Shown piece by piece: positions 28,169-52,238 of a stretch of 64,000 bases of DNA (the first letter of the stretch is position 1; the number at the start of each line of letters is the position of its first letter). Under the pieces are notes generated by a model. The model did no database searches, was not told where the DNA came from, and worked only from the letters and a program-made list of their open reading frames with translations. The stretch comes from Modicisalibacter xianhensis (GTDB lineage: Bacteria; Pseudomonadota; Gammaproteobacteria; Pseudomonadales; Halomonadaceae): positions 1-64,000 of the forward strand of contig NZ_FOPY01000006.1 in the NCBI RefSeq assembly GCF_900113605.1. Direction: 5' to 3'. The translations under genes and the position numbers were made by a program.

Positions 28169-29023
28169 ATGCTTGCTTATCAGCACGCCTATCATGCCGG
28201 CAACTTTGCCGATGTGCACAAGCACTTGACGCTGTATGCCATGCAGCGAAGCTTGTTACGTAAAGAATCTCCTGTTACGTATGTTGATACCCATGCCGGT
28301 CGGGGGCGTTATCCCTTGGCCGGAAAGGAAACCCAGAAGCTCAAGGAATACCAGCAGGGTGTCATGCCGCTTTGGGAAGCGCGCCGGTCAATGAGTGGCA
28401 GGCATGACCTGCTCGCGGACTGGCTCTGCGCCCTGCAACGGGCTCAGGAAGGCCAGGCGGGACATGCATTGTCCCATTACCCGGGCTCACCATGGTGGCT
28501 CACCGACAGCCTGCGCCGTCAGGATCGGCTCAGTCTGTTCGAACTGCACCCTGGCGAACATGGCCATCTCGAAGGCCAGACATGGCCGGCCAATGTGCGT
28601 CACATCCATGCTGATGGCCTGGCGGGGCTGCGTCGGCTGGTGCCGGCGACGACCCCCCGGCTTTGTGTACTGATCGATCCCAGCTACGAGCGCAAGGAAG
28701 ATTACGGCGAAGTGGCCGACACGCTGGCCTACGTGGCCCGCAAAGCGCGTCATGCACAAGTAGCGATCTGGTATCCCCTGTTGCCGGCGGGACGCCATCA
28801 GACGCTGCTGGATCGCGTGCGTGATGCTGGCCTGCGCAAGCTGTGGCGCAGCGAGATCCGCCTGCACGCGTCCGGGGAGAGTCACGGCATGTACGGTAGT
28901 GGCATGCTGTTGTTCAACCCGCCCTGGGGACTGGATGATGCGCTGACCCGGCTGTTTGCCGACGTAGTCGGCGTGTGGGGGCGCGAAGCCACCCACCGCG
29001 GCGACTGGTGGGTGGAGGAGTGA
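28169..29023 (+). CDS. rlmJ: 23S rRNA (adenine2030-N6)-methyltransferase
   Basis: Methylates A2030 of 23S rRNA. It starts MLAYQHAYHAGNFADVHKHLTL, the standard RlmJ N-terminus, with TYVDTHAGRGRYPL as the SAM loop and LIDPSYERKEDY as the catalytic DPxY-type motif. It ends in GMLLFNPPWGLDDAL and WWVEE. It is 284 residues from the ATG at 28169. It is the last chromosomal gene before the genomic island, whose left attachment-like repeat begins 13 bases after the stop. Confidence 0.95.
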   Translation: MLAYQHAYHAGNFADVHKHLTLYAMQRSLLRKESPVTYVDTHAGRGRYPLAGKETQKLKEYQQGVMPLWEARRSMSGRHDLLADWLCALQRAQEGQAGHALSHYPGSPWWLTDSLRRQDRLSLFELHPGEHGHLEGQTWPANVRHIHADGLAGLRRLVPATTPRLCVLIDPSYERKEDYGEVADTLAYVARKARHAQVAIWYPLLPAGRHQTLLDRVRDAGLRKLWRSEIRLHASGESHGMYGSGMLLFNPPWGLDDALTRLFADVVGVWGREATHRGDWWVEE

Positions 29024-29035
29024 GGCCAGATTGGG

Positions 29036-29053
29036 CTACTTACCGATACAGAA
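29036..29053 (-). repeat. Left attachment-site-like repeat of the island
   Basis: Read on the minus strand this is TTCTGTATCGGTAAGTAG. It matches 14 of 18 bases of the mnmE 3' end at 52221-52238, and, from memory of the literature, 16 of 18 of the SGI1 attB repeat. It marks the sharp change from GC-rich rlmJ to AT-rich island DNA. Confidence 0.75.
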
Positions 29054-29244
29054 TGTTTATTATTCTTTAAAAACAATAGTTTGTAAATTTTCTGGAGCAC
29101 CCTAGGAGTGCAGGAATTTGCGAAAAAAGTGGAAAAATTGGCAAATTTCCGTCGATCCGAATGCAGGTGCCCCATCAATGAACCGGGAAAAGTGGGAAAC
29201 TGGGAACATGCTAAATGACTATTCCTAACCCGACTTGCTTGCGG
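29054..29244. other. Left-end noncoding region of the island with phased GGGAA repeats
   Basis: AT-rich spacer without a gene. A 26-base element at 29181-29206 has GGGAA at 29185, 29194 and 29202. It matches 22 of 26 bases, in inverted orientation, to 50418-50443 near the other end of the island. Such phased repeats could be protein-binding iterons or integrase arm sites; the function is unknown. Confidence 0.5.
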
Positions 29245-30114
29245 TCACGAAGCGATTTCCCTCTCTTCAAGCAATACAACTTGTTGCACATGGGGCGCCT
29301 CTTCCGTCGATTCTCCTGGTCGCGAAAGATCAGAAATAAAACCAAGACGCTTTTTCAAGTATGCGGACAGTGCCTTTCTGACCTGAATTTTGGCGATTCC
29401 TTCACTCATTCCATAATCTAGCTCAATGACGCGTTTATGAGCTGGAGGCAGGCTAGGGTTTGGAGCAATCGTTAATTCCAAGTATGTACGCCAATCAGCA
29501 TCAAGCGAGATATCGATGTCACTTCTGCGGGTTTCTCCAATCTCCAAAATTCGGCCAAACACAAAATCAATGAACTTCTGACGGTCATGGCAGTAGCTTC
29601 GTAAATGCCATCTGTACCCGTCTGACGCCATAGCATGCGGCGTTATCCAACGGTAGCTAGGCTCATCACGAGAAAGTGACTGATAAAGAATATTTACTGC
29701 CATTCCCTCCTCAATAGCTCTCAGCAATCTTCTCAGAAATGAAGGATCAATCGTTCGTTCTGGCACTGGCACGACATCAAAATCAGGAGGTGAGCTGATA
29801 AAGGACTCATGTGAAAGGCTACTCGAATGCTCAGCTTGACGAACCTCAAGCTGAGCCATGTAGTCCCCAGAGCTGGGGGTTATCAGCTTTGGAGAGAACT
29901 CTTCTGTCGCGAGATAGGCTTTTCGCTTGCGATCGTAAAAGGCGTTATCAGGAGCCAGTTCGAGATACCGCTTCAAGTCAAGCGTGCACTGCGGTACAGA
30001 AATCCGGAACTGTTCGATGAGATCCTGCCTGTTGATCTTGCCTTCCCAATATAGCCTAAATTCAATGAATTGCAGCCGTGTGTCGGCGCTCCAGTTTCCA
30101 ACTTTTTGAGTCAT
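29245..30114 (-). CDS. WYL-domain transcriptional regulator (BrxR/CapW-like) of the ubiquitin-like operon
   Basis: A 289-residue regulator with an N-terminal winged helix (about 1-75: RLQFIEFRLYWEGKINRQDLIEQFRISVPQCTLDLKRYLEL), a WYL domain (about 130-205: LLRAIEEGMAVNILYQSLS, WITPHAMASDGYRWHLRSYCHDRQKFIDFVFGRIL) and a C-terminal extension. This order matches BrxR/CapW repressors that control phage-defence operons. It is divergent from the ubiquitin-like gene across a 121-base spacer with an inverted repeat, so it probably represses both. It is related to, but clearly distinct from, the second WYL protein of the island at 37063. Confidence 0.85.
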   Translation of the reverse strand: MTQKVGNWSADTRLQFIEFRLYWEGKINRQDLIEQFRISVPQCTLDLKRYLELAPDNAFYDRKRKAYLATEEFSPKLITPSSGDYMAQLEVRQAEHSSSLSHESFISSPPDFDVVPVPERTIDPSFLRRLLRAIEEGMAVNILYQSLSRDEPSYRWITPHAMASDGYRWHLRSYCHDRQKFIDFVFGRILEIGETRRSDIDISLDADWRTYLELTIAPNPSLPPAHKRVIELDYGMSEGIAKIQVRKALSAYLKKRLGFISDLSRPGESTEEAPHVQQVVLLEEREIAS

Positions 30115-30129
30115 TTTTGCTCCATCCGG

Positions 30130-30217
30130 GGTACGAATAATTTTTATGTTGACATACTTTTTATTTCTATTGTAGCATCACTCTCAGAGCAACATCAGCA
30201 TAATTTCTATTCGTACC
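30130..30217. promoter_or_regulatory. Operator-like inverted repeat flanking the ubiquitin-like operon promoter
   Basis: GGTACGAATA at 30130-30139 is the exact complement of TATTCGTACC at 30208-30217, and the match extends to 15 of 19 bases on each arm (30130-30148 and 30199-30217). The arms bracket the plus-strand promoter, one upstream of the -35 and one downstream of the -10. This suits repression by the divergent WYL protein through two bound dimers or a loop. Confidence 0.65.
30149..30178 (+). promoter_or_regulatory. Predicted promoter of the ubiquitin-like operon
   Basis: A consensus -35 TTGACA (30149-30154), an 18-base spacer and a -10-like TAGCAT (30173-30178) lie about 58 bases upstream of the first gene's start, which has a GGAGG ribosome site at 30225-30229. 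Confidence 0.6.
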
Positions 30218-30235
30218 GCCGATTGGAGGAAAATC

Positions 30236-30505
30236 ATGAGCAACGGCAAGTCAGAGCAGGCACCAGGTCAGAACAAAAGTTACTCGATCATCGTAAATGG
30301 ACGGCCCAAGGAGGTTACCCAGAAAAAATTGAGTTACTTGGAGGTGGTGCAAATTGCATTTCCTGGTGAGCAACCCACACCACAACGTGTTTATACCGTC
30401 ACGTTTTCCAATCCCCATGGCAAAGACGGAACCATGGTGGAAGGCCAAGAAGAGGTAATTAAAGATGGCATCATCTTCAATGTCACAAAAACTGATCAGT
30501 CGTAA
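30236..30505 (+). CDS. Multiubiquitin-type beta-grasp (ubiquitin-like) protein
   Basis: An 89-residue protein with a single ubiquitin-like domain (about residues 14-86): SYSIIVNGRPKEVTQKKLSYLEVVQIAFPG, then VYTVTFSNPHGKDGTMVEGQEEVIKDGIIFNVT. The strand pattern and the GxxxNVT-like end fit the Multi_ubiq family, usually found beside ThiF and DUF6527 genes. Only one domain copy is present. It ends in FNVTKTDQS with no Gly-Gly, so either conjugation uses another carboxyl end or the tail is processed. It probably modifies targets via the enzyme encoded next, with which it overlaps by 41 bases. Confidence 0.8.
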   Translation: MSNGKSEQAPGQNKSYSIIVNGRPKEVTQKKLSYLEVVQIAFPGEQPTPQRVYTVTFSNPHGKDGTMVEGQEEVIKDGIIFNVTKTDQS

Positions 30506-31679
30506 TCCCGATCTCAGCAAACTTCAGAATGACGGGTACGAAGTAGAGTGCAGGGACGGTTACCTAATTGTTCATTCGGTACCCTACGTCAATTCTTCAG
30601 GTGTTATCGATCGGGCCGACTTGGTTAGCGCTCTTGAGCTCAGAGGTGAACAAACGTGCTCTCCAGTAAGAGACCATCAAGTTTGGTTTACTGGTTCTTT
30701 GCCATACACAAATCAGGGGCAACCTGTGAGTGGACTCGGCGGTCAGGGAGAAATACGCCAAACCCTTACTGAAGGGGTCGAAGCTCGCTACAGGTTTTCG
30801 AATAAACCTACCAGCGGATATCAAGATTTTTTCCAGAAAATGTCTCGATACGTATTGCTTCTCTCTCGGTATGCAATGGCTATCGATCCGGGTATTACAG
30901 CAAAGACTTTTAAGCCTATTCCGGAAACCGAAGAGTCATCTCCGTTTCGGTATATTGATTCAGCCTCCAGTAGGGCTGGTATCACCGCGGTCTCCCAGAA
31001 ACTTGCCATGGATAAAGTTGCGATCATAGGTTTGGGCGGAACTGGCTCATACATTCTGGACCTGTTGGCTAAGACCCCTGTTAGAGAAATACATCTTTTC
31101 GATGGCGATGACTTTCAGCAGCACAATGCATTTAGAGCGCCAGGGGCTGCATCAATTGAGAAGCTTCAGTCACAGCCCTCAAAAGTGAGCTATTTTTCGG
31201 ACATTTACGGTCACATGCGAAGCGGCTTGGTACCCCACCATCAATTTATTGATGAAACAACCGTTACTGAGCTATCTGAATTTAACTTCGTTTTTATATG
31301 TGTTGATAAACCTTCCGTGAGAAAGGTTGTTGTGGACTTCCTTGTAGATAAGGAGATCCCTTATATTGATGTGGGAATGGAAGTCACCCTGGTTGATGAA
31401 TCATCAACTCTCGTTGGTACTTGTAGAACAACTCTCGGTACTGCGTCGAAAAGTGACCATATCAGCAAATATGCATCCCTCGCGGGAACTGGAGCGGATG
31501 ATCTGTATCGCAGTAATATACAAGTAGCTGATTTAAATGCTCTAAACGCTACACTGGCAGTGATTAAATGGAAGAAACACTGTGGTTTTTATCAGGATTG
31601 TTATCGTGAACACCAATCATGCTACTCTTTGAACACCCACCAGCTCACGAGAGATGAACTATTTAAGGAGGTCTCGTGA
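30465..31679 (+). CDS. ThiF/E1-like adenylyltransferase with N-terminal accessory domain
   Basis: A 404-residue enzyme. Residues about 20-150 form a domain with HQVWFTGSLPYTNQG and RFSNKPTSGYQDFFQKMSRYV, matching the domain I know as DUF6791, which precedes ThiF domains in these operons. From about 180 is an E1 fold: nucleotide loop VAIIGLGGTGS (189-195), LFDGDD (Asp213), AFRAPGA (Arg224), and CVDKPSVRK (C279, D281). C-terminal cysteines are in KKHCGFYQDCYREHQSCYS. It should adenylate the ubiquitin-like protein. ATG 30465 has an AAGAGG site; ATG 30480 is an alternative. Its stop overlaps the next gene (GTGA). Confidence 0.85.
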   Translation: MASSSMSQKLISRNPDLSKLQNDGYEVECRDGYLIVHSVPYVNSSGVIDRADLVSALELRGEQTCSPVRDHQVWFTGSLPYTNQGQPVSGLGGQGEIRQTLTEGVEARYRFSNKPTSGYQDFFQKMSRYVLLLSRYAMAIDPGITAKTFKPIPETEESSPFRYIDSASSRAGITAVSQKLAMDKVAIIGLGGTGSYILDLLAKTPVREIHLFDGDDFQQHNAFRAPGAASIEKLQSQPSKVSYFSDIYGHMRSGLVPHHQFIDETTVTELSEFNFVFICVDKPSVRKVVVDFLVDKEIPYIDVGMEVTLVDESSTLVGTCRTTLGTASKSDHISKYASLAGTGADDLYRSNIQVADLNALNATLAVIKWKKHCGFYQDCYREHQSCYSLNTHQLTRDELFKEVS

Positions 31680-32119
31680 GGAAAGTAACAAGTATCATTC
31701 CTCAAAAGGTAGAGTTTATTCCTGAACGTCTTGAGCAGGGGATCCTCTACGTTTCTCCAAAATATAAAACAGCTATCCACTTATGCTGTTGTGGCTGTGG
31801 TAAAGAGGTTGTAACTCCCTTGGGCGCAACTGACTGGTCCCTTAAAGTAACAGGAAATGACGTTACGCTGTATCCATCAATTGGAAATTGGAGTTTTGAA
31901 TGTCGATCTCATTACTGGATTCGGAATAACAGGGTTGTTTGGGCGGAAGATATGTCCCAAGCTAAGATTGAAAGAGGACGGGCCGCTAATCTGAGACGAA
32001 AAGCCGCCTATTTCGAAGAAACGAACTCTAAACAGCATTCGCCGAAGAGAAAAACCCCAAGTGGCGAGAGTATCATTTCCCACATCTGGGCCACGATCAA
32101 ACGCTGGATCGGCTTATAA
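31676..32119 (+). CDS. DUF6527 family protein of the ubiquitin-like operon
   Basis: A 147-residue protein with the DUF6527 core: VEFIPERLEQGILYVSPKYKTAIHLC, a cysteine cluster at 37-39 and 41 (CCCGC), TPLGATDW, and the strongly conserved block PSIGNWSFECRSHYWI (residues 67-82) holding Ser78 and His79. The C-terminal 50 residues are basic with a hydrophobic end. I recall reports that DUF6527 proteins act as deconjugating peptidases in bacterial ubiquitin-like operons, but I cannot verify this here. It starts at a GTG that overlaps the E1 stop behind a perfect AAGGAGG. Confidence 0.8.
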   Translation: MRKVTSIIPQKVEFIPERLEQGILYVSPKYKTAIHLCCCGCGKEVVTPLGATDWSLKVTGNDVTLYPSIGNWSFECRSHYWIRNNRVVWAEDMSQAKIERGRAANLRRKAAYFEETNSKQHSPKRKTPSGESIISHIWATIKRWIGL

Positions 32120-32160
32120 ATGCAAAAATCACCTATTTCGTATCAGCAGCACTACCAGTT

Positions 32161-33393
32161 TCAGTAATAATAGCCCGGTGACCTTGGTTCCGGGCCATCC
32201 AGAATAGCATCTGAGACTGCTATTAACGGGTCCATGCAGTCTGCTTTGATCCGAGCCCAGCTTATCCAGTCCTTGAGCTCCTCGCTGAGCTCCCCATTCC
32301 TGACCGCAGCCTGCTCTACCGCATCGATATATTGTCGTAAACGTTCGGCTTCGAGCCACTGAGTGGCGCTAACCTTCAATTTTTCGAGTTGCTCCAGTTC
32401 GTGCTTTCGGAGCTCAACCTGGCGGTCGTGTCGGTCTTTTGCTGTCTGCCATGCTAGGCGTCTGCGTTCCTGCTCTTCAGCTCGGATACGGTGTTCTGCA
32501 ATCAGGTCTAATGCACCGGCAACAACTTGATGCAGCCGTTGCTCCAGCGGAGTTTTCGGCGTATCCCCCCAACTTCTGGATGGGTAACCGCCGATTGAAA
32601 TCGTCAATTTTCCGGTTGGGTGGTAGTCGTAATCAGGTGGCCTTGGGTAGTGGTATCCGGTTCCCCAGCGATTCGGAGAACGTTGCCAGCGTTCAATTGC
32701 TTTTTTCTCTGCTGCGGTTACTTCATGCTTGCTCCTGGCGACATGCTCGCTGATTGCTATGGTCAACGAAGTTTCGTCCAGTCCGATCAGGGTACGACTC
32801 TTTTCACGGTCTACCCAAACCTTCATACCCTGACGTTCAAGCGTTTTTATCAGTGTGTCGCCTATCAATAATGCTCTATCGATCGCATCTCTAGTCACTT
32901 CGAAAGCAAAAATTTCTCCCGGCGCTGAACGCAGTCCTTTGTAGTTGTCCCATCCGGATTTTTGCCTCAGTCGCTTGGATGCCTTCTTTATTAAGGCATG
33001 CGGAGATTCGAGTAATTCTGGCACATCGACAAAGCCTATACGTTCTTGGGCTGTCGTGGCTTTTTTCCGCGAAGCATCAGGATTATTGAGGTCGTAAGTG
33101 CGTGACCGACGGAGAGGTAGGGAGTAATTCTCAAACTCCTTGGCGGTAGGAAGCGGAATTTTCCTCGGAGAATGTCCGGCGTTGATTTTTGCCCAGTACC
33201 CACGTGGCGGCAGAGGTATCTTGTGCTTGCGACAAACTTTTCCCAATGCAACACCGGATATCCCATAGCGCGGCGCAACTCTGGAGACAGGCTCTGCCCA
33301 TACCTCGTTGTAAAGTGATTCTCGCGTAATTGCGGCGACGCTTTCCATAGGTAACCTCTGCTGATCAAAAGTGCCATTTTCTTTTATAGCCAA
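32161..33393 (-). CDS. Unrecognised HTH-containing protein, 410 residues
   Basis: I do not recognise a named family, although the N-terminal pattern ITRESLYNEVWAEPVSRVAPRYGISGVALGKVCRKHKIPLPPRGYWAKINAG is one I associate with hypothetical proteins in many bacteria. It reads as a helix-turn-helix (residues about 22-60). The middle is basic with several KK and RR pairs, and the C-terminal 120 residues are highly charged and likely coiled coil (EQERRRLAWQTAKDRHDRQVELRKHELEQLEKLK). It is convergent with the ubiquitin-like operon and has its own promoter region; a DNA-binding role is inferred. Confidence 0.6.
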   Translation of the reverse strand: MAIKENGTFDQQRLPMESVAAITRESLYNEVWAEPVSRVAPRYGISGVALGKVCRKHKIPLPPRGYWAKINAGHSPRKIPLPTAKEFENYSLPLRRSRTYDLNNPDASRKKATTAQERIGFVDVPELLESPHALIKKASKRLRQKSGWDNYKGLRSAPGEIFAFEVTRDAIDRALLIGDTLIKTLERQGMKVWVDREKSRTLIGLDETSLTIAISEHVARSKHEVTAAEKKAIERWQRSPNRWGTGYHYPRPPDYDYHPTGKLTISIGGYPSRSWGDTPKTPLEQRLHQVVAGALDLIAEHRIRAEEQERRRLAWQTAKDRHDRQVELRKHELEQLEKLKVSATQWLEAERLRQYIDAVEQAAVRNGELSEELKDWISWARIKADCMDPLIAVSDAILDGPEPRSPGYYY

Positions 33394-33542
33394 AGATATG
33401 CCTGCCCCGCCAATTTTTCGCTACGTCCGAATTTAAACTTTGTTCTGTTAGTACAAATCATTGATTTATAAAGATTATTTTTGGTTTTCCTCTTGCATAT
33501 TCTCAACCTCGTGAGAATATTTAATAAAAGCAGGAGGACATA

Positions 33543-34391
33543 ATGAAAAGATTAGCACCCTTAACTACAGCAATATTGGCCGCTGCCCTGGTTGGCTGCG
33601 CGGCCACCCCACGAGCTTACAATCCGGAAGAGTCTCGGGCTTTAAACCTGGCGAGAGCCGGTGGCATCTACGATATGGACTTGCGGGATTCTGGGGATGG
33701 CACTCGCTCCTACAGTAAAGGCATGTTGGTGCCATTACTGGATCTCGCCAGCCTGGCGACTTCATTCGATGCACCGCTTCGACATCTCTCAGGTAGCCAG
33801 ACGTCTTTGTTCAACGCTACTGAAATCATGATGACTCCAGACAGTCCGTCGGCGAGACCAAGCCTGATGGGATGGATGCCAGCGTCTATGGCCAGTTCGG
33901 AGGCTCAGGCCTATGAGCAGTATGTGGATCTGGTGGACCAGGCCATCCGATTAGCTGCCAATGATATGGCGTTGAGCGCCACCAAACTCAGTAACGTGGA
34001 GACGCCCGAGATAGACGGCCATCCACTGGTGCTTTGGTCGATTGAAAGCACTGAGTATGGATGTGGTGTGGGTCAATGTGTGGTTGCCTACAACATCAAG
34101 ACGCCGAATCGTTGGAAGTCTCCCGCCTACGTGGAAGGTACTGGGCCCGAAAGCTACAACATCGCGGCTAATCATCCAGAGAATTATTCTCGCCTCGTTT
34201 TCCGGCAATCAGGTGAGCAACTCAGCTTCCCTGTGGACGAGTTCTACCGCACGGTCAGTGGTGCCTTACCATCCTGGATGGTGGTGTATTTTCCTCCCGG
34301 CACCGTCATCCGGGATGGCGAACCGCTGCCGTATCCTGTGTTGTACGAGCAGGGACAGCGACTGATGTTCAAGGAGCCAGATCATGAGTGA
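33543..34391 (+). CDS. Predicted lipoprotein of unknown function
   Basis: A 282-residue protein with a lipoprotein signal MKRLAPLTTAILAAALVGC (lipobox LVGC, residues 16-19), behind an AGGAGG ribosome site. The mature part has no motif I recognise; it contains two close cysteines in YGCGVGQC. It overlaps the next gene by ATGA, so the two are coupled. It is likely anchored to the outer membrane. Confidence 0.6.
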   Translation: MKRLAPLTTAILAAALVGCAATPRAYNPEESRALNLARAGGIYDMDLRDSGDGTRSYSKGMLVPLLDLASLATSFDAPLRHLSGSQTSLFNATEIMMTPDSPSARPSLMGWMPASMASSEAQAYEQYVDLVDQAIRLAANDMALSATKLSNVETPEIDGHPLVLWSIESTEYGCGVGQCVVAYNIKTPNRWKSPAYVEGTGPESYNIAANHPENYSRLVFRQSGEQLSFPVDEFYRTVSGALPSWMVVYFPPGTVIRDGEPLPYPVLYEQGQRLMFKEPDHE

Positions 34392-37062: not shown

Positions 37063-37992
37063 GTGCCGGGAAACGCCGCCTTAAAGCTCGAAAATCACTC
37101 ACACGCCCAGCGCGAGCGCTTGGCGTTCATTGATTTTTGCCTGCAATACCACGGCTCAGTGGGCCGAAGTGAGCTAATGGCGCACTTCGGCACCGCAGTC
37201 GCCTCCAGCACCCGGGACTTCACCCTCTACCGTGAGCTAGCCCACGAGAACCTAATCCTCCGTCACGAAAACAAGCGCTACTACCGTACCGACAACTATC
37301 AGCCTCTGTTCCACCATGAGCCCCATGCCGCCTTGAAAACCCTGGCTCACGGCTTTGGCGACGGGCTATCGGTGACTCCTGGCCAATCTGGTTTCTGTGA
37401 GGATGCGCCAGATTTGATCTCGCCACCACAGGATGTGCTGGCGACAGTGAGCCGGGCCATAAGCCAAGAACAGGCTGTGCGGATGACTTACCAGTCCCTC
37501 AATTCAGGCGCTAGCGAGCGTGTGGTTGTGCCACACAGCATCATCAACAACGGCCAGCGTTGGCACATGCGCGGCTACTGCCGGAAACGCGGTGCATTCC
37601 GAGATTTTGTCTGCAATCGCATCACCAGCGTGATTATCGACAAAGCGGATATCGCAGAGCATGAGCATCAAACGTCGGATTCCGAATGGAACGAGCAACT
37701 GACCTTAGAGCTCATCCCGCACCCGTGCCACAGTCATCCGGAGGCTATTGCGCTGGATTTTAATATGTCCCGGCAGAACAACCAGCCGGTCCGACAGCTC
37801 AGCATCCGTGCCGCTCGCGCTGGCTACCTGCTACGCCATTGGAACGTGGACTGTAGCCCCGATCATCGGTTGCCAGAGCAGGAATATCACCTGTGGCTGC
37901 GTAACCACAACATTCTTGAACACTGCGCTAACGCTGTCCTGGCACCTGGCTATGTCGACACGCATGGCAAGGCAGCGGTAATTATTAAATAG
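37063..37992 (+). CDS. WYL-domain transcriptional regulator (BrxR/CapW-like) of the restriction operon
   Basis: A 309-residue regulator starting at a GTG. It has a winged helix (about 15-75: RERLAFIDFCLQYHGSVGRSELMAHFGTAVASSTRDFTLYREL), a WYL domain (about 125-205: AVRMTYQSLNSGASERVVVPHSIINNGQRWHMRGYCRKRGAFRDFVCNRI), and a C-terminal extension of the BrxR/CapW type. It lies 10 bases before hsdM and is probably the first gene of that operon. Such repressors are known to hold defence operons down; the 16-bp palindrome upstream suits autoregulation. Confidence 0.85.
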   Translation: MPGNAALKLENHSHAQRERLAFIDFCLQYHGSVGRSELMAHFGTAVASSTRDFTLYRELAHENLILRHENKRYYRTDNYQPLFHHEPHAALKTLAHGFGDGLSVTPGQSGFCEDAPDLISPPQDVLATVSRAISQEQAVRMTYQSLNSGASERVVVPHSIINNGQRWHMRGYCRKRGAFRDFVCNRITSVIIDKADIAEHEHQTSDSEWNEQLTLELIPHPCHSHPEAIALDFNMSRQNNQPVRQLSIRAARAGYLLRHWNVDCSPDHRLPEQEYHLWLRNHNILEHCANAVLAPGYVDTHGKAAVIIK

Positions 37993-38002
37993 CGAGAACA
38001 GC

Positions 38003-40276
38003 ATGCAACAAAACCATCATCAAAACCTTGTCGGCTTCATCTGGAACATCGCTAACAAGCTGCGAGGCCCGTATCGGCCACCCCAGTACCGGCGGGTAAT
38101 GCTACCAATGATCGTCTTGCGTCGGTTTGACCTGGTATTGGCGGAAAACCAGAAAAAGGTACTGGCTGAGAAGGAACGCCTGGAAGCCCGCGGCATAACC
38201 GGCCCTGCACTGGAAAAGGCGCTTTCGCGCATTGCCACCAGTGGCCGCAAACAGGAACTGTTCAATACCAGCGGCTTCACCTTCGATAAGCTACTGGCTG
38301 ATCCGCCGAACATTGCGGGCAACATGATTGCCTACATCCAGGGTTTCTCACCCCGCGCTCGGGACATCTTTGATAAGTTCGATTTCGAGGCGGAAATCGC
38401 CAAGCTGGATGAAGCCAACCGCCTTTTCCTGATTCTCAAAGAGTTCTGTAGCAACGAAATTGATCTCTCACCCAAGACCCTCAGCAACCTACAGATGGGC
38501 TATCTGTTCGAAGAGCTGGTCAGAAAATTCAATGAACAGGCAAACGAAGAGGCCGGGGACCACTTTACTCCCCGTGAAGTCATCCGGCTGATGGTGCAGT
38601 TGTTATTTACCGATGAGGAAGGCATCTTCGCGCCGGGCATTTACCGGAGTATCTACGACCCCACAGCCGGTACCGGTGGCATGCTCTCGGAAGCTGAAAA
38701 GTACATTTGCGGTGACGGTACCCATGAAGGATTGAACCCCGATGCCCACATCGAGCTGTTCGGCCAGGAGTACAATCCGGAATCCTACGCCATTTGTTGC
38801 TCAGACCTCCTGATCAAAGACGAACCCATCGATAATCTCATCTATGGGGACACGCTGGGCGTGAAAGACGCCAAGAACAAAAACAACGGCTTCGTACCGC
38901 ACGATGGCCACCAGGAGAAGAAATTCCACTACATGCTTTCCAACCCGCCTTTTGGGGTTGAATGGAAGCCGGAAGAAGATTTCGTTCGTGAGGAGTACGA
39001 CGACCAGGGCTTTTCCGGGCGCTTCGGTGCCGGTCTGCCACGTATCAATGATGGCTCGCTGCTTTTCCTGCAACACATGATTTCAAAGATGCACAACCCG
39101 CCGAAACTGGTGGATGGCCTTCCTCTTGATAATAACAGCGAAGGTGGTGACGGCTCGAAAATTGCCGTGGTCTTCAACGGCTCCCCGTTATTCACCGGCG
39201 ATGCCGGTAGTGGTGAGAGCAATATTCGACGTTGGATTATCGAAAACGACCTGCTCGATGCCATCGTGGCCCTGCCAGATCAGATGTTCTACAACACGGG
39301 CATTTACACCTACGTCTGGATTGTCAGTAATCGCAAGCCAGAACACCGCCGAGGCAAAGTGCAGCTAATCGACGGCACCCGCCACTACAAAAAGATGGAC
39401 AAAAGCCTGGGTAACAAGCGAAACGAGCTAGCAGAGGACCATATACGCGAACTGGTGCGCCTCTACGCAGAACATCAGCATGAGGCGACGTCCATAGCGC
39501 CGGTACATACCAAAGGATCATCAAAACCGACAGGAACCGAAAACCGTACCGTCAGCAAGATCTTTGATAACCACGAGTTTGGCTATCTGAAAATCACAGT
39601 GGAACGCCCTCTAAGGCTGAATTTCCAGGCCAACCCCCAGAGAGTTGCTCGACTCGACGAACAGCGCGCCTTTGCCAACCTGGCCACCAGTAAAAAGCGT
39701 AAGGACCAAGCGGCCTATCAGGCGGAAATTGAGGCTGGCAAACAGACTCAGATTGCCATCAAAGAGCTGCTGGAAGAGCTGGATGGCAACATTCTTTATC
39801 AGAACCGGGGTGAATTTGAAGCCGTATTGAATAAGGCTTTGAAGAAGGCCGACCTCAAGGTAGGTGCTCCGGTGAAGAAGGCGATACTGGCGGCGCTGTC
39901 AGAGCGAGACCCAGAGGCCGACATTTGTCGTGACAAGAAGGGCAATCCAGAGCCAGATCCGGAGTTGCGCGATACCGAAAACGTGGTGTTGCCCGCTGAT
40001 ATCAGCCTCCCCTTGCCGCTGAAATACGACAACGAAACCGGTCATGACAAGCTGCTTGCGTTGGTAAAGGACTATTGCGAGGCCTATCTGGCTGCTGAGG
40101 TATTGCCCCATGTGCCGGATGCCTGGATTGACCATAGCAAAACCAAGGTTGGTTACGAGATCCCGCTGAATCGCCATTTCTATGTCTATGAGCCACCACG
40201 CCCATTGGAGGAGATTACTGGCGAAATTAGTCAGTTGGAAAAGGAAATCGTCGCCATGCTAGCTGAGGTGGTTTGA
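38003..40276 (+). CDS. hsdM: Type I restriction-modification system DNA methyltransferase subunit
   Basis: N6-adenine methyltransferase subunit that protects host DNA at the sequence chosen by HsdS. The SAM motif DPTAGTGG is at residues 219-226 and the catalytic NPPF at 314-317. The N-terminal HsdM helical domain (LVGFIWNIANKLRGPYRPPQYRRVMLPMIVLRRFD) is clear. At 757 residues it is longer than classical HsdM because of a C-terminal extension rich in charged helices, as in one common subfamily. It overlaps hsdS, forming a tight operon. Confidence 0.94.
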   Translation: MQQNHHQNLVGFIWNIANKLRGPYRPPQYRRVMLPMIVLRRFDLVLAENQKKVLAEKERLEARGITGPALEKALSRIATSGRKQELFNTSGFTFDKLLADPPNIAGNMIAYIQGFSPRARDIFDKFDFEAEIAKLDEANRLFLILKEFCSNEIDLSPKTLSNLQMGYLFEELVRKFNEQANEEAGDHFTPREVIRLMVQLLFTDEEGIFAPGIYRSIYDPTAGTGGMLSEAEKYICGDGTHEGLNPDAHIELFGQEYNPESYAICCSDLLIKDEPIDNLIYGDTLGVKDAKNKNNGFVPHDGHQEKKFHYMLSNPPFGVEWKPEEDFVREEYDDQGFSGRFGAGLPRINDGSLLFLQHMISKMHNPPKLVDGLPLDNNSEGGDGSKIAVVFNGSPLFTGDAGSGESNIRRWIIENDLLDAIVALPDQMFYNTGIYTYVWIVSNRKPEHRRGKVQLIDGTRHYKKMDKSLGNKRNELAEDHIRELVRLYAEHQHEATSIAPVHTKGSSKPTGTENRTVSKIFDNHEFGYLKITVERPLRLNFQANPQRVARLDEQRAFANLATSKKRKDQAAYQAEIEAGKQTQIAIKELLEELDGNILYQNRGEFEAVLNKALKKADLKVGAPVKKAILAALSERDPEADICRDKKGNPEPDPELRDTENVVLPADISLPLPLKYDNETGHDKLLALVKDYCEAYLAAEVLPHVPDAWIDHSKTKVGYEIPLNRHFYVYEPPRPLEEITGEISQLEKEIVAMLAEVV

Positions 40277-40278
40277 CT

Positions 40279-41649
40279 ATGAGACAAGTACGATATCCGA
40301 GCTATAAAACGACCAAATCTACTTGGCTCGCGTCTATACCTGAACATTGGGAAGAGAAGCGTCTAAAAGATGTCGCCACATACAATGACGAGAGTTTGGA
40401 TGAGAAAACCGATCCAGACTTTGAAATTGAGTATGTCGATATCTCCAGTGTGTCATTGACACATGGTATCGAAAAAACCGAATTATTAGCTTTTGAGAAA
40501 GCGCCATCCCGTGCGCGTCGCAAAGTCAGACATGGCGATGTCATAGTTTCGACTGTGCGCACATATCTCAAAGCAATTGCTCCTATAAAGAACCCTCCTC
40601 TTAATATGGTTGTCTCGACGGGATTTGCAGTAATTCGCCCTCGTTCGAGTTTAGATGCCCGATTTGCTGGTTACATGTTGCAGTCCAATGGATTCGTCGG
40701 CGACGTTGTCGCTAACTCGGTTGGAGTGAGTTATCCAGCGATCAATGCGAGTGACCTAGCTCGTTTACCATTTGCAGAACCACCATTGCCTGAACAAATA
40801 AGAATATCAGACTTTCTTGACCACAAAACTGCTCAGATTGATGCACTGATCGCCAAAAAGCAGTCTCTCTTGGACAAGCTGGCCGAGCAACGCACAGCTC
40901 TAATCAGCCAGGCGGTAACCAAAGGGCTCGATCCATCGGTACCCATGAGAAATTCAGGTGTTGACTGGGTTGGGGAAATACCGGCGCATTGGACTGTGCC
41001 TATTTTAGGCTATGTCGCAGAGGTGAGAGGTGGAGTAACGAAAGGTCGAAAACTGCCAAACGAAGCAACGGTAGAAGTTCCGTATTTGAGGGTTGCCAAT
41101 GTTCAGGATGGCTTCATTGATCTCAGCCATGTCACCAACATTGAAATACTAGTGACAGAACTGGAACGCTACTCCCTGCAGAAGGGGGATGTACTGATGA
41201 ATGAAGGGGGTGACAACGACAAACTTGGTCGTGGAGCCGTTTGGGAGGGGGAAATCAGCCCATGTCTTCATCAGAATCATGTTTTCGCTGTGCGTCCAAG
41301 GATTCCAGAGTTTTCTGATTGGCTGGCTCTGCTTACGCAGTCCGGTTACGCCAAGTTTTACTTTTATACCACGGCAAAACAGAGCACAAATCTGGCTTCA
41401 ATTTCCTCTAGTAATATCAAGAAATTACCGGTATTGCTGCCTCCCGAAGCCGAGCGAAGAGAAATCATTGATCACGTAAAGACTTCGTTGGATAAACTAA
41501 CAAAACAACGCGAAAGAGTTATCCAAGTCATCGAGCGACTCAAAGAATACCGCTCTGCCCTGATCACCAATGCTGTCACCGGCAAAATCGACGTGCGGGA
41601 TTTCTGCATACTTACTACCAGTGAGCAAAGGGAGGTTGCCCATGGCTGA
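40279..41649 (+). CDS. hsdS: Type I restriction-modification system specificity subunit
   Basis: Selects the DNA target. It has two target-recognition halves, each followed by a coiled helix: PEQIRISDFLDHKTAQIDALIAKKQSLLDKLAEQRTALISQAVTKGLDPS after the first and the KQRERVIQVIERLKEYRSALITNAVTGKIDV helix at the end. It is 456 residues from the ATG at 40279; an in-frame TTG two codons earlier overlaps the hsdM stop. The second half is followed directly by dinD, with an 8-base overlap. Confidence 0.92.
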   Translation: MRQVRYPSYKTTKSTWLASIPEHWEEKRLKDVATYNDESLDEKTDPDFEIEYVDISSVSLTHGIEKTELLAFEKAPSRARRKVRHGDVIVSTVRTYLKAIAPIKNPPLNMVVSTGFAVIRPRSSLDARFAGYMLQSNGFVGDVVANSVGVSYPAINASDLARLPFAEPPLPEQIRISDFLDHKTAQIDALIAKKQSLLDKLAEQRTALISQAVTKGLDPSVPMRNSGVDWVGEIPAHWTVPILGYVAEVRGGVTKGRKLPNEATVEVPYLRVANVQDGFIDLSHVTNIEILVTELERYSLQKGDVLMNEGGDNDKLGRGAVWEGEISPCLHQNHVFAVRPRIPEFSDWLALLTQSGYAKFYFYTTAKQSTNLASISSSNIKKLPVLLPPEAERREIIDHVKTSLDKLTKQRERVIQVIERLKEYRSALITNAVTGKIDVRDFCILTTSEQREVAHG

Positions 41650-42508
41650 TACACCGTCCACCAATACTCACCACGAGAGCTTTGAAGGCATCCGCAGAGA
41701 GGATGAGCATGGCAACGAGTTCTGGTCAGCCAGAGAGCTGGCACCTCTGCTGGAATACCCGCAGTGGCGGAATTTTGTCCCGGTTATTGGTAAGGCCAAA
41801 CATGCCTGTGAAAGATCCGGGAACGTCGTTGCAGACCATTTTGCGGACGTGCGCAAAATGGTTGGTATCGGCTCCGGCGCGCAACGCCCGGTACCGGATG
41901 TCCACCTGTCACGCTATGCCTGCTACCTGATCGTCCAGAACGGCGATCCCACGAAGCCAGTCATCGCCAACGGCCAGACCTACTTCGCTATCCAAACGCG
42001 CCGACAGGAGCTGGAGGACAGCGAGCAGTTCACATCCCTCTCCGAGGATGAGAAGCGCCTGGCAATCCGTAAGGAGCTTATTGCCCACAACAAGTACCTG
42101 GCGGCGGCTGCCCAGGATGCTGGCGTGGAGACCCCATTGGATTACGCCATTTTTCAGGATCATGGCTACAAAGGGCTATACGGAGGGCTGGGCGCCAAGG
42201 ACTTACATGCCAGAAAAGGGCTCAAGAAGAGCCACAAGATTCTGGACTACATGGGGAGCACAGAGCTCGCTGCCAATCTGTTCCGTGCTACACAGGCAGA
42301 AGAGAAGCTTCGCCGGGACAACATTCAGGGTAAGCAGAACGCCAACAAAACCCATTTCGAGGTAGGCCAGAAGGTTCGGCAAACCATCGGCGAACTGGGC
42401 GGCACCATGCCAGAAAACCTGCCCACCCCGGATAAAAGCGTCAAACAAGTAGAAAACGCGCAGAAGAAGCTGGGAAAGCAGCAGAACGACGACTCTGACC
42501 AAGATTAG
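41642..42508 (+). CDS. dinD: DNA-damage-inducible protein D (DinD family)
   Basis: A 288-residue protein with the DinD N-terminus SFEGIRREDEHGNEFWSARELAPLLEYPQWRNFVPVIGKAKHACERSGN (a BRO-N/antirepressor-like module) and the internal DFAIFQDHGYKGLYGG-like segment typical of DinD. In E. coli DinD is an SOS protein that inhibits RecA strand exchange in vitro. Here it lies between hsdS and hsdR in the same operon; the ATG at 41642 follows a GGGAGG site. It may limit recombination at cut DNA or regulate the system; that is inference. Confidence 0.87.
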   Translation: MADTPSTNTHHESFEGIRREDEHGNEFWSARELAPLLEYPQWRNFVPVIGKAKHACERSGNVVADHFADVRKMVGIGSGAQRPVPDVHLSRYACYLIVQNGDPTKPVIANGQTYFAIQTRRQELEDSEQFTSLSEDEKRLAIRKELIAHNKYLAAAAQDAGVETPLDYAIFQDHGYKGLYGGLGAKDLHARKGLKKSHKILDYMGSTELAANLFRATQAEEKLRRDNIQGKQNANKTHFEVGQKVRQTIGELGGTMPENLPTPDKSVKQVENAQKKLGKQQNDDSDQD

Positions 42509-42548
42509 TCGCTGGAACCCAGCCAAGTTTTAAAAAGGAACATAGGTT

Positions 42549-45500
42549 ATGCACAAAGAAATCGACTTTGAGAACGCCATAGAGCAGGCGCTGATCATCC
42601 AAGGTGGCTATCAGAAGGGAGATCCCACCAGTTTCGATGCTGAAACCGCCTTGTTCCCGGCGGATGTCGTGAGCTTTGTGCAGAAGACACAACCCAAAAT
42701 CTGGGAGCGGTTGAACAACCTGGATGCGAGCAAGGCCGAGAGCATGCTCCTTGATGCCCTAACCAAAGAACTGGCCGCAAAAGGCGCCTTGACCGTGCTG
42801 CGCGAGGGTTTCAAGTGCGTCGGCAAGTCGGTGAAGCTGGCTTACTTTGCCCCCAATACCAGTATTGATACCGGCGCGGCTGAACGCTACGCCGCGAACA
42901 GGCTTACCGTGGTTCGTCAGGTACATACCAAGACGGGCGCAATTCCGGACATGGTACTGGCTGTGAACGGCCTCCCAGTTGCCACACTGGAGCTGAAAAA
43001 TGCCATGTCGGCGACCGGGTGGACCGTTGAAAATGCCAAGTCCCAGTACCGCTTCGAACGGAACCCCAAAGACCCGCTGTTCGCCTTCAAGAATCGCTGC
43101 CTGGTGCATTTCGCGGTAGATACCGAGCAAGCTTTTATGACGACCCACCTGGAGGGTAAGGATACCTTTTTCCTGCCTTTCAACCGGGGTTTTAATCACG
43201 GCGCTGGCAACCCGCCGATGGAAGGTGATGTTCGTACCGCCTACCTCTGGGAAGAGGTGCTGGAGCGGGACAGCCTGATGGATATCCTCGCCCGTTTTCT
43301 GCACCTTCAGGTAGAGGAGAAAACGGTCGTGACCGAAAAGGGAATCAAGCGGCACCGCAAGGAAACATTGATCTTCCCACGGTACCACCAACTGGATGCC
43401 GTAAGGTCTCTGACCCAGCACGCAAAAGCCAAGGGCTCCGGCCATAACTATCTCGTACAGCACTCTGCGGGTTCCGGTAAATCCAACTCCATTGCCTGGT
43501 TGGCCCATCGTTTGTCCAGTCTGCACGATGCTAACAACGAGAAGGTATTCCATTCCGTGGTGGTGATTACCGACCGCCGGGTACTCGACCAGCAATTGCA
43601 GAACACCATCTTCCAGTTCGAGCACAAGTTGGGCGTTGTTCAGAAGATCGACGAGAATACTCAGCAACTGGCCAAGGCGCTGGCTGACGGGGTGCCGATC
43701 ATCATCTCGACTATCCAGAAGTTCCCCTTCATCAGTCAGGCCATCCGCACGCTGGAGCAGAAAGGCAAAGGCATCTCAATTTCGACGGAAGGCAAACGCT
43801 TCGCGGTGATTGTGGATGAGGCCCACAGCTCGCAGAGTGGCGAAACGGCTATGGAGCTGCGGAAGATCCTGAACAAAGATGGCATCGAGTCAGCCATTGC
43901 TGAGCAATTACTGGACATGGAGGACGAGAGCCTTAGCGAAGAAGCTAAAAAGGAGCTCATCAGAGAGCAACTCAAACGTGCCAAACAGCTCAACCTGAGC
44001 TTTTTCGCGTTCACCGCAACGCCCAAGTTCAAGACCATGGCCGTGTTTAACGAGCCGGGGCGAAACGGAGAAGCTCCGTTCCATCACTACAGTATGCGGC
44101 AGGCCATCGAAGAGGGTTTTATCCATGACGTGCTGGCCCACTACACCTGCTACAAGCGTTATTACAAGCTGATCCAGAAGGTTGAGGATGACCCTGAAGT
44201 ACCGCGCCGCAAAGCAGCAAGGGCGTTGGCTCGTTTTGTTTCCTTCCACGACTATGAGATAGCGCAGAAGGTTGAGGTGATCGTTGAGCACTTCCGCACC
44301 CATACCCGCCACAAGATCGGTGGCCGGGCAAAGGCCATGGTAGTGACCAGCTCTCGTGAACATGCGGTGCGCTACAAGCTGGGCTTCGACAAGTACATCA
44401 AATCTAAAGGCTATACGGATGTGAAGTCCCTTGTAGCCTTCTCGGGAGAAATCGCTCTCAAGGAATATGCTGACAAGACATTTACCGAAGTCGGTATGAA
44501 CCAGGGCATCAAGGAGTCTGAGCTACCGGATAAATTCAACACCGAGGAATATCAGGTGTTACTGGTCGCTGAAAAATACCAAACCGGCTTTGACCAGCCA
44601 CTGCTTCATAGCATGTATGTGGATAAGAAGCTGTCAGGCATTCAGGCGGTGCAAACGCTGTCACGGCTTAACCGAACGGCCAGGGGCAAGACAGATACCT
44701 TTGTCCTGGACTTCGTGAATGAGCCGGATGAAATCTACAAGGCGTTCAAACCCTATTACGAGGTGACCACCAAGGAAGAGGATACCGACCCTCAGCAGCT
44801 CAATAACCTGGCCCACACCCTGTCCACCTGGCAGATTTTCACGGAGGGTGAGGTGAGCGCGTGGTGCGAGATCTGGTTCCGCAACCGACTGAACCCGACG
44901 GGCGGCGAGCATAAGAAGCTGAATAGTTTGATTGACCTGGCTGTCGAGCGTTTCAAGAAATTGAGCGAGGAAGACCAAGCCCTGTTCAAGGGGCAATTGG
45001 TCAGCTTCCGTAACCTGTACGGCTTCGTTGCCCAGATCATTCCTTATCAGGACTCGGACCACGAGAAGCTGTACACCTATTCCCGCTTCCTGCTCACCAA
45101 GCTGCCTTACACCACCGATACGCGCACTGTGCAGGTCGATGATGAGGTAGAGCTGAAGTACTACCGGCTTCAGAAAATCAGTGAAGGAGCCATCGACCTG
45201 AAAGTAGGCGAACCGGAAGCCTTGTATGGCCCGACCGAGGTCGGCACCGGCCAGGCAGAGGAAGAGGTGCAGTTATCGACGCTGGTCGACAAGCTCAATG
45301 AGCGATTTGGTACTGAGTTTACCCCGGCAGATCAGCTGTTCTTCGACCAAGTGAAGGAAACCGCCGTTGCCAACGAGCAGCTTCGCCAGGCCGTCATGGC
45401 CAACAGCCTGGAGAACTTCGAACCGGTATTTAACAAGCAGCTTGAGAACTTGTTTGTAGAGCGCATGGACGGCAACGAAGACATTTTCATACGCCTGATG

Positions 45501-45587
45501 AACGATACGTCTTTCCGCAACATCGCTTCTCAGTACCTGATGCGGGCTGTGTATAACCAGGTCAAAACCAGCGTTGAATCGCAGTAA
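42549..45587 (+). CDS. hsdR: Type I restriction endonuclease subunit R
   Basis: Motor and nuclease of the type I system. An N-terminal PD-(D/E)xK nuclease is seen around Asp134 (IPDMV) with ELK at 148-150. A helicase follows with Walker A SAGSGKS (about 306-312), the DEAH box VDEAHS at 423-426 and later motifs AEKYQTGFDQP and LSRLNRTARGK. It is 1012 residues, normal for HsdR. With hsdM and hsdS it forms a complete, apparently intact system. Confidence 0.94.
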   Translation: MHKEIDFENAIEQALIIQGGYQKGDPTSFDAETALFPADVVSFVQKTQPKIWERLNNLDASKAESMLLDALTKELAAKGALTVLREGFKCVGKSVKLAYFAPNTSIDTGAAERYAANRLTVVRQVHTKTGAIPDMVLAVNGLPVATLELKNAMSATGWTVENAKSQYRFERNPKDPLFAFKNRCLVHFAVDTEQAFMTTHLEGKDTFFLPFNRGFNHGAGNPPMEGDVRTAYLWEEVLERDSLMDILARFLHLQVEEKTVVTEKGIKRHRKETLIFPRYHQLDAVRSLTQHAKAKGSGHNYLVQHSAGSGKSNSIAWLAHRLSSLHDANNEKVFHSVVVITDRRVLDQQLQNTIFQFEHKLGVVQKIDENTQQLAKALADGVPIIISTIQKFPFISQAIRTLEQKGKGISISTEGKRFAVIVDEAHSSQSGETAMELRKILNKDGIESAIAEQLLDMEDESLSEEAKKELIREQLKRAKQLNLSFFAFTATPKFKTMAVFNEPGRNGEAPFHHYSMRQAIEEGFIHDVLAHYTCYKRYYKLIQKVEDDPEVPRRKAARALARFVSFHDYEIAQKVEVIVEHFRTHTRHKIGGRAKAMVVTSSREHAVRYKLGFDKYIKSKGYTDVKSLVAFSGEIALKEYADKTFTEVGMNQGIKESELPDKFNTEEYQVLLVAEKYQTGFDQPLLHSMYVDKKLSGIQAVQTLSRLNRTARGKTDTFVLDFVNEPDEIYKAFKPYYEVTTKEEDTDPQQLNNLAHTLSTWQIFTEGEVSAWCEIWFRNRLNPTGGEHKKLNSLIDLAVERFKKLSEEDQALFKGQLVSFRNLYGFVAQIIPYQDSDHEKLYTYSRFLLTKLPYTTDTRTVQVDDEVELKYYRLQKISEGAIDLKVGEPEALYGPTEVGTGQAEEEVQLSTLVDKLNERFGTEFTPADQLFFDQVKETAVANEQLRQAVMANSLENFEPVFNKQLENLFVERMDGNEDIFIRLMNDTSFRNIASQYLMRAVYNQVKTSVESQ

Positions 45588-45613
45588 CAGAACAAAAAGG
45601 GATAACGTCCGTT

Positions 45614-50859: not shown

Positions 50860-52050
50860 TTAGGCTGCACATTCCTCAACCTCGTCCAGTGTCTCCTCAA
50901 ATATGTCAGGAAAACTCCTCATGGCCTCTGTACGGCGAGTTTCGAGTATGTCCGCATAGATCTCCGTGGTTCTGAGCTCGCTGTGGCCCAGAAGCCGGGA
51001 CAACGAGTAGATATCCACACCCCTGGCCAGTTGATTGACCGCAAAGGTGTGCCGTCCGGCATGGAAGGTGACGTTCTTGGTGATTCCTGCCCGCATGACC
51101 CACTGCGCTAATGCAACGTTGGTGTAGGAGTCATACTTCAGACCCTTGAATACCCTATCGCTTGGCTTACCGCGATTCTCCAAGTTCAACAATCTCACCG
51201 CTGAGTCTGGAAGATCCAAGTATTGCAGTGAGTTCCCGGCGTTCACCAGCTTCTTCTGCCGAAAAATGATGCGGTAGTGGCCATCGGCGAATTCCTCTAT
51301 CTCACCCCAGACCAGCTTGTGGATGTCTGACCAGCGAAGGCCTGTGGTGCAGGAGAACAGGAAAGCCCGCCGCAGCACGTCATAACGGCATTCGGCTTTG
51401 GTTAGAGCCCTTACCTCTTCCAGGGTCAAGTAAGTGCGTTTCGTGTTTTCCGGCTTGATGGACTTGACCTGTTGAACCGGGTTGTCGCGGACAATGCCAT
51501 CCCGATAGGCTTGGTTGAGCGCTGCCCGAACCTTGTTGAAATAACTGCTGGTGGTGTTCTTGGCTAGTTTGGTACCGGATTTGGTGGTGGCCTCATGCAG
51601 AAGGTAGTGCCGGAACCCCTCCAGGAATCGCTTATCGACTTGTTCAAAGGTCAGTTCAGACAAGCCATGGTAGCGGTGCAGGTGGTGACGGGTGGAGATC
51701 CAGATCGAATGGTTGGATTTGCTTCCGGAAGCTTTCTCGTCAGTCAGCTGGTCGAAGTAATCGAAGAAGCTGGCAGAAAGCTTGGTCCGATCATCCAATC
51801 CATGTCGTGACGACTCGATTTCCAACAGCCGTTTTGCCCGGATGGCCTCAGCCTTCTGATTCACGGTCTTGTTGTGCTCGCGCTCCGCCGGAAGTCGAGG
51901 TTTGTCGTAGAGGAACAGGTTCAGGGGCTCATACGAGCGCTTCTGCGCCCGAGAACCGTTCTGGCCTGTCTTGGAACCGTGATAGTAGACCAGTCGCAAG
52001 GCACGGTGGCCGTTCTTGTCTGGTTCGCGTTTCTGGATAGTGATTTTCAT
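50860..52050 (-). CDS. Tyrosine-type site-specific integrase
   Basis: A 396-residue tyrosine recombinase. An arm-binding N-terminus (MKITIQKREPDKNGHRALRLVYYHGS) and a SAM-like core-binding domain (SFFDYFDQLTDEKASGSKSNHSIWISTRHHLHRY) precede the catalytic part. The catalytic residues are seen in TTGLRWSDIHKL (Arg), FHAGRHTFAV (His, Arg) and LLGHSELRTTEIYADI (His, Tyr). The arm and SAM style looks like that common in Bacteroidetes integrases. It lies next to the mnmE 3' end, in the same direction as mnmE, and should be the enzyme that inserted the island. Confidence 0.92.
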   Translation of the reverse strand: MKITIQKREPDKNGHRALRLVYYHGSKTGQNGSRAQKRSYEPLNLFLYDKPRLPAEREHNKTVNQKAEAIRAKRLLEIESSRHGLDDRTKLSASFFDYFDQLTDEKASGSKSNHSIWISTRHHLHRYHGLSELTFEQVDKRFLEGFRHYLLHEATTKSGTKLAKNTTSSYFNKVRAALNQAYRDGIVRDNPVQQVKSIKPENTKRTYLTLEEVRALTKAECRYDVLRRAFLFSCTTGLRWSDIHKLVWGEIEEFADGHYRIIFRQKKLVNAGNSLQYLDLPDSAVRLLNLENRGKPSDRVFKGLKYDSYTNVALAQWVMRAGITKNVTFHAGRHTFAVNQLARGVDIYSLSRLLGHSELRTTEIYADILETRRTEAMRSFPDIFEETLDEVEECAA

Positions 52051-52220: not shown

Positions 52221-52238
52221 TTACTTCCCAATGCAGAA
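52221..52238 (-). repeat. Right attachment-site-like repeat at the mnmE 3' end
   Basis: TTCTGCATTGGGAAGTAA on the minus strand encodes the last residues (FCIGK, stop) of MnmE. It matches 14 of 18 bases of the left copy. The mnmE reading frame is intact, so the integration event restored the gene end, as is usual for this target. Confidence 0.75.

Follow-up and report, generated by a model that had tools for sequence, protein, structure and literature searches.

A DUF6791-type ubiquitin-like operon in a mobile island of Modicisalibacter xianhensis is a sister of Bub with a serine-ended Ubl and no E2 or JAB gene beside it

How might a ubiquitin-like protein (Ubl) be activated and passed on by an operon that carries an E1-like gene and has neither an E2 nor a JAB gene beside it? 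The question is raised by three genes, about 1.9 kb in all, in the window, the 64,000-nucleotide stretch of Modicisalibacter xianhensis DNA (contig NZ_FOPY01000006.1) analysed here. An earlier note had described them as a minimal ubiquitin-like conjugation operon, and the three open reading frames are present where it placed them, with family assignments that were borne out by Pfam. The Ubl gene (30236-30505, plus strand) encodes 89 aa with a single Multi_ubiq domain (PF14452, E=4e-14) and the end ...NVTKTDQS. The gene for an E1-like adenylyltransferase (30480-31679, plus strand; 399 aa counted from the family start) encodes a DUF6791 domain at residues 10-161 (30507-30962; PF20590, E=5e-49) and a ThiF adenylation core (30993-31379; PF00899, E=7e-13), and NCBIfam NF004805, a 'hypothetical protein' family of the PRK06153 group, spans nearly the whole E1 (E=6e-155). 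The last gene (31676-32119, plus strand, GTG start) encodes a DUF6527 protein of 147 aa (PF20137, E=1.4e-25). The GLGGTGS loop of the E1 and the PSIGNWSFECRSHYWI block of the DUF6527 protein were both read in the sequences.

The E1 and DUF6527 genes share four bases (31676-31679), as noted earlier. The overlap between the Ubl and E1 genes also exists, but its length was given as 41 bases, counted from an upstream in-frame ATG (30465). Because the E1 start of relatives corresponds to 30480 and not to 30465, the overlap is 26 nt (30480-30505, plus strand), encoding the C-terminus of the Ubl and the N-terminus of the E1. Measured from the profile-aligned E1 start, 27 of 28 operons have this 26-nt overlap, and L087 has one of 23 nt; in L087, L092 and L093 this start point is not a start codon, and the annotated overlaps are 26, 41 and 41.

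Divergent from the operon lies a gene absent from the earlier note (29245-30114, minus strand), which encodes a CapW/BrxR-type WYL repressor (PF13280, E=1.5e-12). As shown by phmmer, it matched S. maltophilia CapW (7tb6, E=1e-53) and BrxR (7t8k, E=2e-39), and it is homologous to the CapW/BrxR repressors described in PMC9122588 across the wHTH and WYL regions and occupies the same divergent position. For a repressor of this kind a palindromic operator overlapping the -10 element would be expected. No clear palindrome was seen in the window: the best score in the divergent intergenic region (30115-30235) was equalled or exceeded in 58 of 60 shuffles. A palindrome was present in the WYL-type relatives L014 and L083 (0 of 60 shuffles). 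The same region holds a -35-like TTGACA at 30149, a -10-like TAGCAT ending at 30178 and a GGAGG before the ATG at 30236. The dedicated promoter claimed for the operon earlier amounts to a 10/12 match, which is not above chance: such matches numbered 4 over 29000-33600 against 5.3 expected in shuffles.

Regulators of this kind recur beside related operons. In the 14 annotated plasmid loci of the DUF6791 type, a WYL gene was found upstream in 3 (one of them behind a nuclease gene) and an HTH gene with ImmA/IrrE in 4, and neither in the other 7. According to the CapK/CapS paper (PMC13373217), CapW/BrxR proteins repress until they bind ssDNA, CapH+CapP is also ssDNA-responsive, and 219 of 544 Bub operons carry CapW or CapH+CapP. 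A 2016 paper (PMC4963859) reported COG2856/DUF955 loci next to 70% of Multi_ubiq proteins and interpreted these loci as toxin-antitoxin; they are now probably better read as CapH+CapP. UvrD/RecB-like helicase-nuclease genes were also seen upstream of Multi_ubiq operons of both types, at no fewer than five loci (L085, L015 and L093 by annotation; L132 and L133 by eye from the ORF).

The surroundings of the operon were compared with those in other genomes. In the window, about 23.2 kb separate rlmJ and mnmE, whereas the two genes are immediate neighbours in the three congeners compared (of ten genomes with a match); in one of the three, L157, the rlmJ-side and mnmE-side matches share 17 nt, which is what a target repeat would give. 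Beside mnmE (52221-53621) lies a gene for a tyrosine integrase (50860-52050, minus strand; PF00589). The adjacency in congeners and the position of the integrase therefore indicated that the operon is cargo of an island that entered at the 3' end of mnmE and spans about 29037-52238. By Pfam or PADLOC, applied to the operon region and to ORFs of at least 200 aa from 37063 onward, the island contains beyond the operon a resolvase, a second WYL gene, a type I restriction-modification set and other defence-like genes, so that the earlier description of an island with restriction genes proved right. The second WYL regulator gene and, after it, the type I set with an Orf5/HEC-06-like protein occupy 37063-47713. 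A convergent gene adjoining the operon (32161-33393) encodes a 410-aa protein with no family match above the cut-off.

Relatives of the DUF6791-type genes are routinely annotated, and the type was found in Pseudomonadota, Bacteroidota, Cyanobacteriota, Actinomycetota and Bacillota. In a phylum sample of 398 genomes, DUF6791 occurred in 8, Multi_ubiq in 15 and DUF6527 in 19; in all 8 DUF6791-positive genomes, Multi_ubiq and DUF6527 genes adjoin the DUF6791 gene, a co-occurrence far above chance. A search with the E1 matched 117 of 72,556 plasmid records, in 108 cases across 80% or more of E1 length, and no entry among 50,697 phage records.

Other Multi_ubiq operons consist of Ubl, Prok-E2_E, JAB-ThiF and DUF6527, encoded either separately or in fused form. 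One of them, the copy on a Citrobacter freundii plasmid (L141), fits the residue numbers in the PDB titles of the Bub structures: residue 104 is the JAMM Asp, residue 370 is Tyr, and BubA 155-229 ends in NNG. The BubCD chain in the PDB has 458 residues and that of L141 has 456. In L141, a JAB domain (H91, H93, S101, D104) is fused to the E1, whereas the window E1 has no JAB domain. Since L141 fits Bub, the gene that always comes last in Bub is likewise DUF6527, and DUF6791 replaces E2_E and JAB in the sister type. The E2_E profile, made from 11 of the 12 Bub-type loci, and the JAB profile, made from 9, each matched 12 of those 12 and 0 of 29 DUF6791-type loci, seven of which extend over only about 3.4 kb. 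This agrees with the earlier statement that E2 and JAB genes are lacking beside the operon. The search of the source genome for E2 families covered Prok-E2_B and Prok-E2_E (PF14462) and gave no match to either. The DUF6791 type is thus named here as a sister of Bub. A cassette on Synechocystis pSYSX, noted in the 2016 paper (PMC4963859), is of the Bub type in the present comparison (L143). Plasmid pXBB1-8 of Acinetobacter johnsonii bears both types (L015, DUF6791; L142, Bub), and two Bub-type loci (L131, L147) have an extra phosphotransferase-like gene before DUF6527.

To compare catalytic residues, 29 E1s were aligned, leaving out the window's own copy (L012), a fragment (L019) and two entries from the same contigs as L017 and L019 (L020 and L022). 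The residues G184, G186, G187, G189, D210, R219 and K235 were kept in all 29, including the adenylation Asp and Arg pointed out earlier, and D276 was kept in 27. Y343 and Q348 were also invariant (29/29). No cysteine was invariant among the 29, the best Cys columns having Cys in 21, 16 and 8; this lack of an invariant cysteine together with an invariant tyrosine is apparently a new observation. As candidate catalytic cysteines, C76 (Cys in 21 of 29, and Tyr in the window E1) and C368 (in KHCGFY; Cys in 8 of 29 only) were rejected. A possible equivalence of Y343 with Y370 of BubCD was seen in one of three MAFFT modes, and hhalign pairs Y343 with another Tyr.

The E1 model was of moderate quality overall (pLDDT 72), and ten-residue blocks within residues 11-140, in the DUF6791 domain, had mean pLDDT of 77-93. 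In Foldseek with this model, the best eight matches were all BubCD chains, with Citrobacter BubCD at the top, followed by PaaA and MccB. The ThiF part matched the E1 part of BubCD-type proteins by hhalign at a probability of 99.4%. DUF6791 was considered as a detectable E2 or JAB homologue and rejected, as profile comparison gave 0.4% for E2_E (11 sequences) and 0.1% for JAB (9 sequences), against 0.7-1.1% for reversed controls. Pfam at E<=10 returned DUF6791 only for seven of seven members, and a PDB profile search with DUF6791 found no credible match.

The Ubl was compared in 28 operons, the E1 set of 29 less L018, which has no Ubl because its contig begins at the E1. The C-terminal residue was Ser in 28 of 28. 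Its codon was always TCN, and the overlapping E1 codon varied (R in 13, H in 8, L in 4 and P in 3). The free third base of TCN alters the overlapping E1 residue, yet the Ser is kept; selection therefore acts on the Ubl. In 14 of the 28 the Ubl ORF was short (<125 aa), like that of the window. Conjugated ubiquitin-like proteins generally end in glycine. A Ubl that ends in serine throughout is apparently a new feature. The sole credible PDB sequence match of the window Ubl was residues 141-222 of the ZDHYS365 multi-ubiquitin domain protein (PDB 9cd2), whose chain has 222 residues against 89 and likewise ends in serine (...TDKS, compared with ...TDQS). Pfam and homology to this solved protein suggest that the window Ubl adopts a beta-grasp fold. 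Among the separate Ubls of the Bub type, Gly is last in two of five (L143, L145) and stands 1-4 residues before the end in the other three (L131, L146, L147); of six fused ones the end is known for L141 alone, by the PDB construct ending at Gly229.

The third protein has a core (31766-31945) with C37-x3-C41 and C76-x2-H79. C76 and H79 were invariant across the 30 DUF6791-type rows, and C37 and C41 were each present in 29, with a gap in the remaining row, a set that fits a probable zinc site. The model (pLDDT 92) showed an all-beta core plus two helices. No known fold could be assigned, as there was no PDB match at E<=0.001 (best Foldseek E 0.38, probability 0.10), and a PDB profile search gave nothing credible. 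After the core follows a C-terminal tail (31958-32116), helical in the model. Tails of 38-71 residues were found in all 29 scored DUF6791-type copies; a tail of at least 30 residues occurred in 2 of 12 Bub copies and in 0 of 57 copies from viral contigs, where the longest was 13. The core pattern used for scoring missed 1 of 30 DUF6791-type, 1 of 13 Bub and 3 of 60 viral rows. The tail end fits h..h[KR].hh in 16 of 29 operon copies, against 3% in shuffles.

These viral copies come from IMG/VR contigs, some of which may be prophages or wrongly classed as viral. DUF6791-type patterns found 64 DUF6527 relatives in 63 viral loci, and Bub patterns found 2; tblastn in phage records gave 3 matches for the DUF6791-type DUF6527 against 0 for that of Bub, including the large-genome phages pEa_SNUABM_29 and FLC9. 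An E1 lay within 4 kb in 3 of the 54 viral-contig loci examined, and no gene cluster within 4 kb was common to more than 4 of the 54. In the 54 viral rows, Tyr stands at position 76 in 17 and His at position 77 in 17. Such standalone tail-less cores in viral contigs are apparently a new observation. Small genes of this kind were seen in phages at L164 (2495-2764) and at viral-contig loci among L023-L081. In the DUF6527 tree, all 13 Bub copies formed one clade (100/99), and the DUF6791-type copies were scattered among viral copies and did not form one clade, in an analysis with few columns, unsettled bootstrap and a viral set found with DUF6791-type patterns.

With confidence a little above even, we read the operon as a module for Ubl activation and conjugation, of the DUF6791 type, that is inducible by stress or DNA damage and works without E2 or JAB. 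We infer its activities from the comparisons given above. The CapW-type repressor would silence the operon until ssDNA arising from DNA damage or phage infection lifts the repression. The Ubl would be synthesised with its final C-terminus, ...TDQS, and on this proposal trimming by a JAB protein would therefore be unnecessary. The ThiF domain would adenylate the carboxylate of the terminal serine (Ser89), and DUF6791 would stand in for the E2 (and JAB) of Bub, most probably by bringing the activated Ubl or the acceptor into position. The Ubl would then be handed to its protein targets with no cysteine of an E1 or E2 being obligatory. DUF6527 would be a zinc-binding accessory common to Bub, perhaps selecting the target or site, and its operon-specific amphipathic tail may dock the protein to a membrane or a partner. 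The module may also serve in defence. Several observations weigh against this reading: DUF6791 has no significant profile similarity to E2_E or JAB, and Iyer et al. (PMC1779556) guessed a JAB-like role for the replacing domain; the E1 model is of moderate quality; Y343 meets Y370 of BubCD in one alignment mode of three; the window has no clear palindrome; 7 of the 14 annotated plasmid loci have neither kind of regulator upstream; and the Ubl does not end in the glycine usual for conjugated ubiquitin-like proteins. In a bolder form, which we regard as doubtful, two proteins would suffice for conjugation without E2, JAB or an obligatory thioester, with E1 and DUF6791 transferring the Ubl directly and the zinc protein DUF6527 guiding; phages, jumbo phages included, would carry the tail-less DUF6527 core as a decoy or inhibitor of the DUF6791 type and not of Bub.

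Other readings share part of this evidence. The same module could serve a general stress response to DNA damage and not phage defence, which the ssDNA response of CapW/BrxR and CapH+CapP would suit, as would the remark that Bub operons 'have not been demonstrated to protect a host cell against phage infection' (PMC13373217); its location on a mobile island that also encodes a type I restriction system argues against this, and we give it a low probability. Equally unlikely, in our judgement, is an E1 that does not conjugate and instead adenylates the C-terminal residue of the Ubl in the manner of MccB or PaaA, giving it a modified or nucleotide-carrying terminus that acts as a signal or a poison. 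PaaA and MccB do come next after BubCD in Foldseek, the Ubl terminus is not glycine and the E1 has no conserved cysteine, but the partner of the E1 is a beta-grasp family protein and not a short peptide, DUF6527 is common with Bub, and the closest kinship of the ThiF domain is to BubCD.

It seems quite improbable that the operon is what remains of a Bub operon after the loss of E2 and JAB, and that it is either decaying or borrowing these functions from elsewhere in the cell. This would account for the absence of E2_E and JAB beside it, and both the plasmid with the two types (L015, L142) and two Prok-JAB matches elsewhere in the source genome, one above the cut-off, could be cited for it. Prok-JAB also matched in 8 of 14 control genomes, however, and such matches are therefore unspecific; the source genome gave no Prok-E2_B or Prok-E2_E match, and DUF6791 is present in 29 of 29 E1s, which come from five phyla and have their conserved residues intact. 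A sulphur-carrier system of the ThiS/MoaD kind is scarcely credible: a ThiF fold with a beta-grasp partner would be expected of it, but the Ubl ends in Ser and not in Gly-Gly, and the features listed for the 14 annotated plasmid loci include no thiamine, molybdopterin or sulphurtransferase gene.

If the module does conjugate its Ubl as the favoured reading proposes, few simpler systems of ubiquitin-like conjugation would be known, and E2, deubiquitinase, catalytic cysteine and terminal glycine would each be dispensable. Being so small (~1.9 kb) and contrasting so exactly with Bub, the operon lends itself to direct tests of what DUF6791, DUF6527 and the terminal serine do, and the phage-borne DUF6527 cores offer a concrete lead to counter-defence.

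The class itself is not new. It was predicted in 2006 by Iyer, Burroughs and Aravind (PMC1779556, row 6e), who described polyUbl operons, a subset of which has an unknown domain replacing JAB on the E1, and guessed a JAB-like role for that domain. The matches listed in our literature search included no functional study of the DUF6791 type. The operon of the window agrees with row 6e in its Ub-like protein (one to three domains there) with an adjacent E1-like gene, in the unrelated N-terminal E1 domain in JAB's place (PF20590 here) and in a metal-binding protein with C-x3-C, where the later pair is printed as H-x2-C as against C76-x2-H79 in the window. By this description, DUF6791 appears to be 'domain X' of that paper. 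The row 6e description does not appear to mention the serine terminus, the 26-nt overlap, the link to CapW or a phage-borne third protein.

Among systems known since, the CBASS Cap2-type and 6A-MBL E2-E1 proteins resemble the window E1 in having an N-terminal domain fused to a ThiF E1. The matches are weak and limited to about the ThiF part; DUF6791 is not recognisable as an E2, and the three-gene operon has no cyclase or metallo-beta-lactamase gene. Bub (Citrobacter BubA, BubB and BubCD; PDB 9ea4-9eav) has in common with the window, as far as its PDB entries and L141 describe it, a Multi_ubiq Ubl, a ThiF E1 that is the closest fold, a terminal DUF6527 and the same kinds of upstream regulator. 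It differs in having an E2_E domain (BubB) and a JAB domain fused to the E1, of which the window type has neither, and in a Ubl that ends at or near Gly, whereas the Ubl of the window type ends in Ser.
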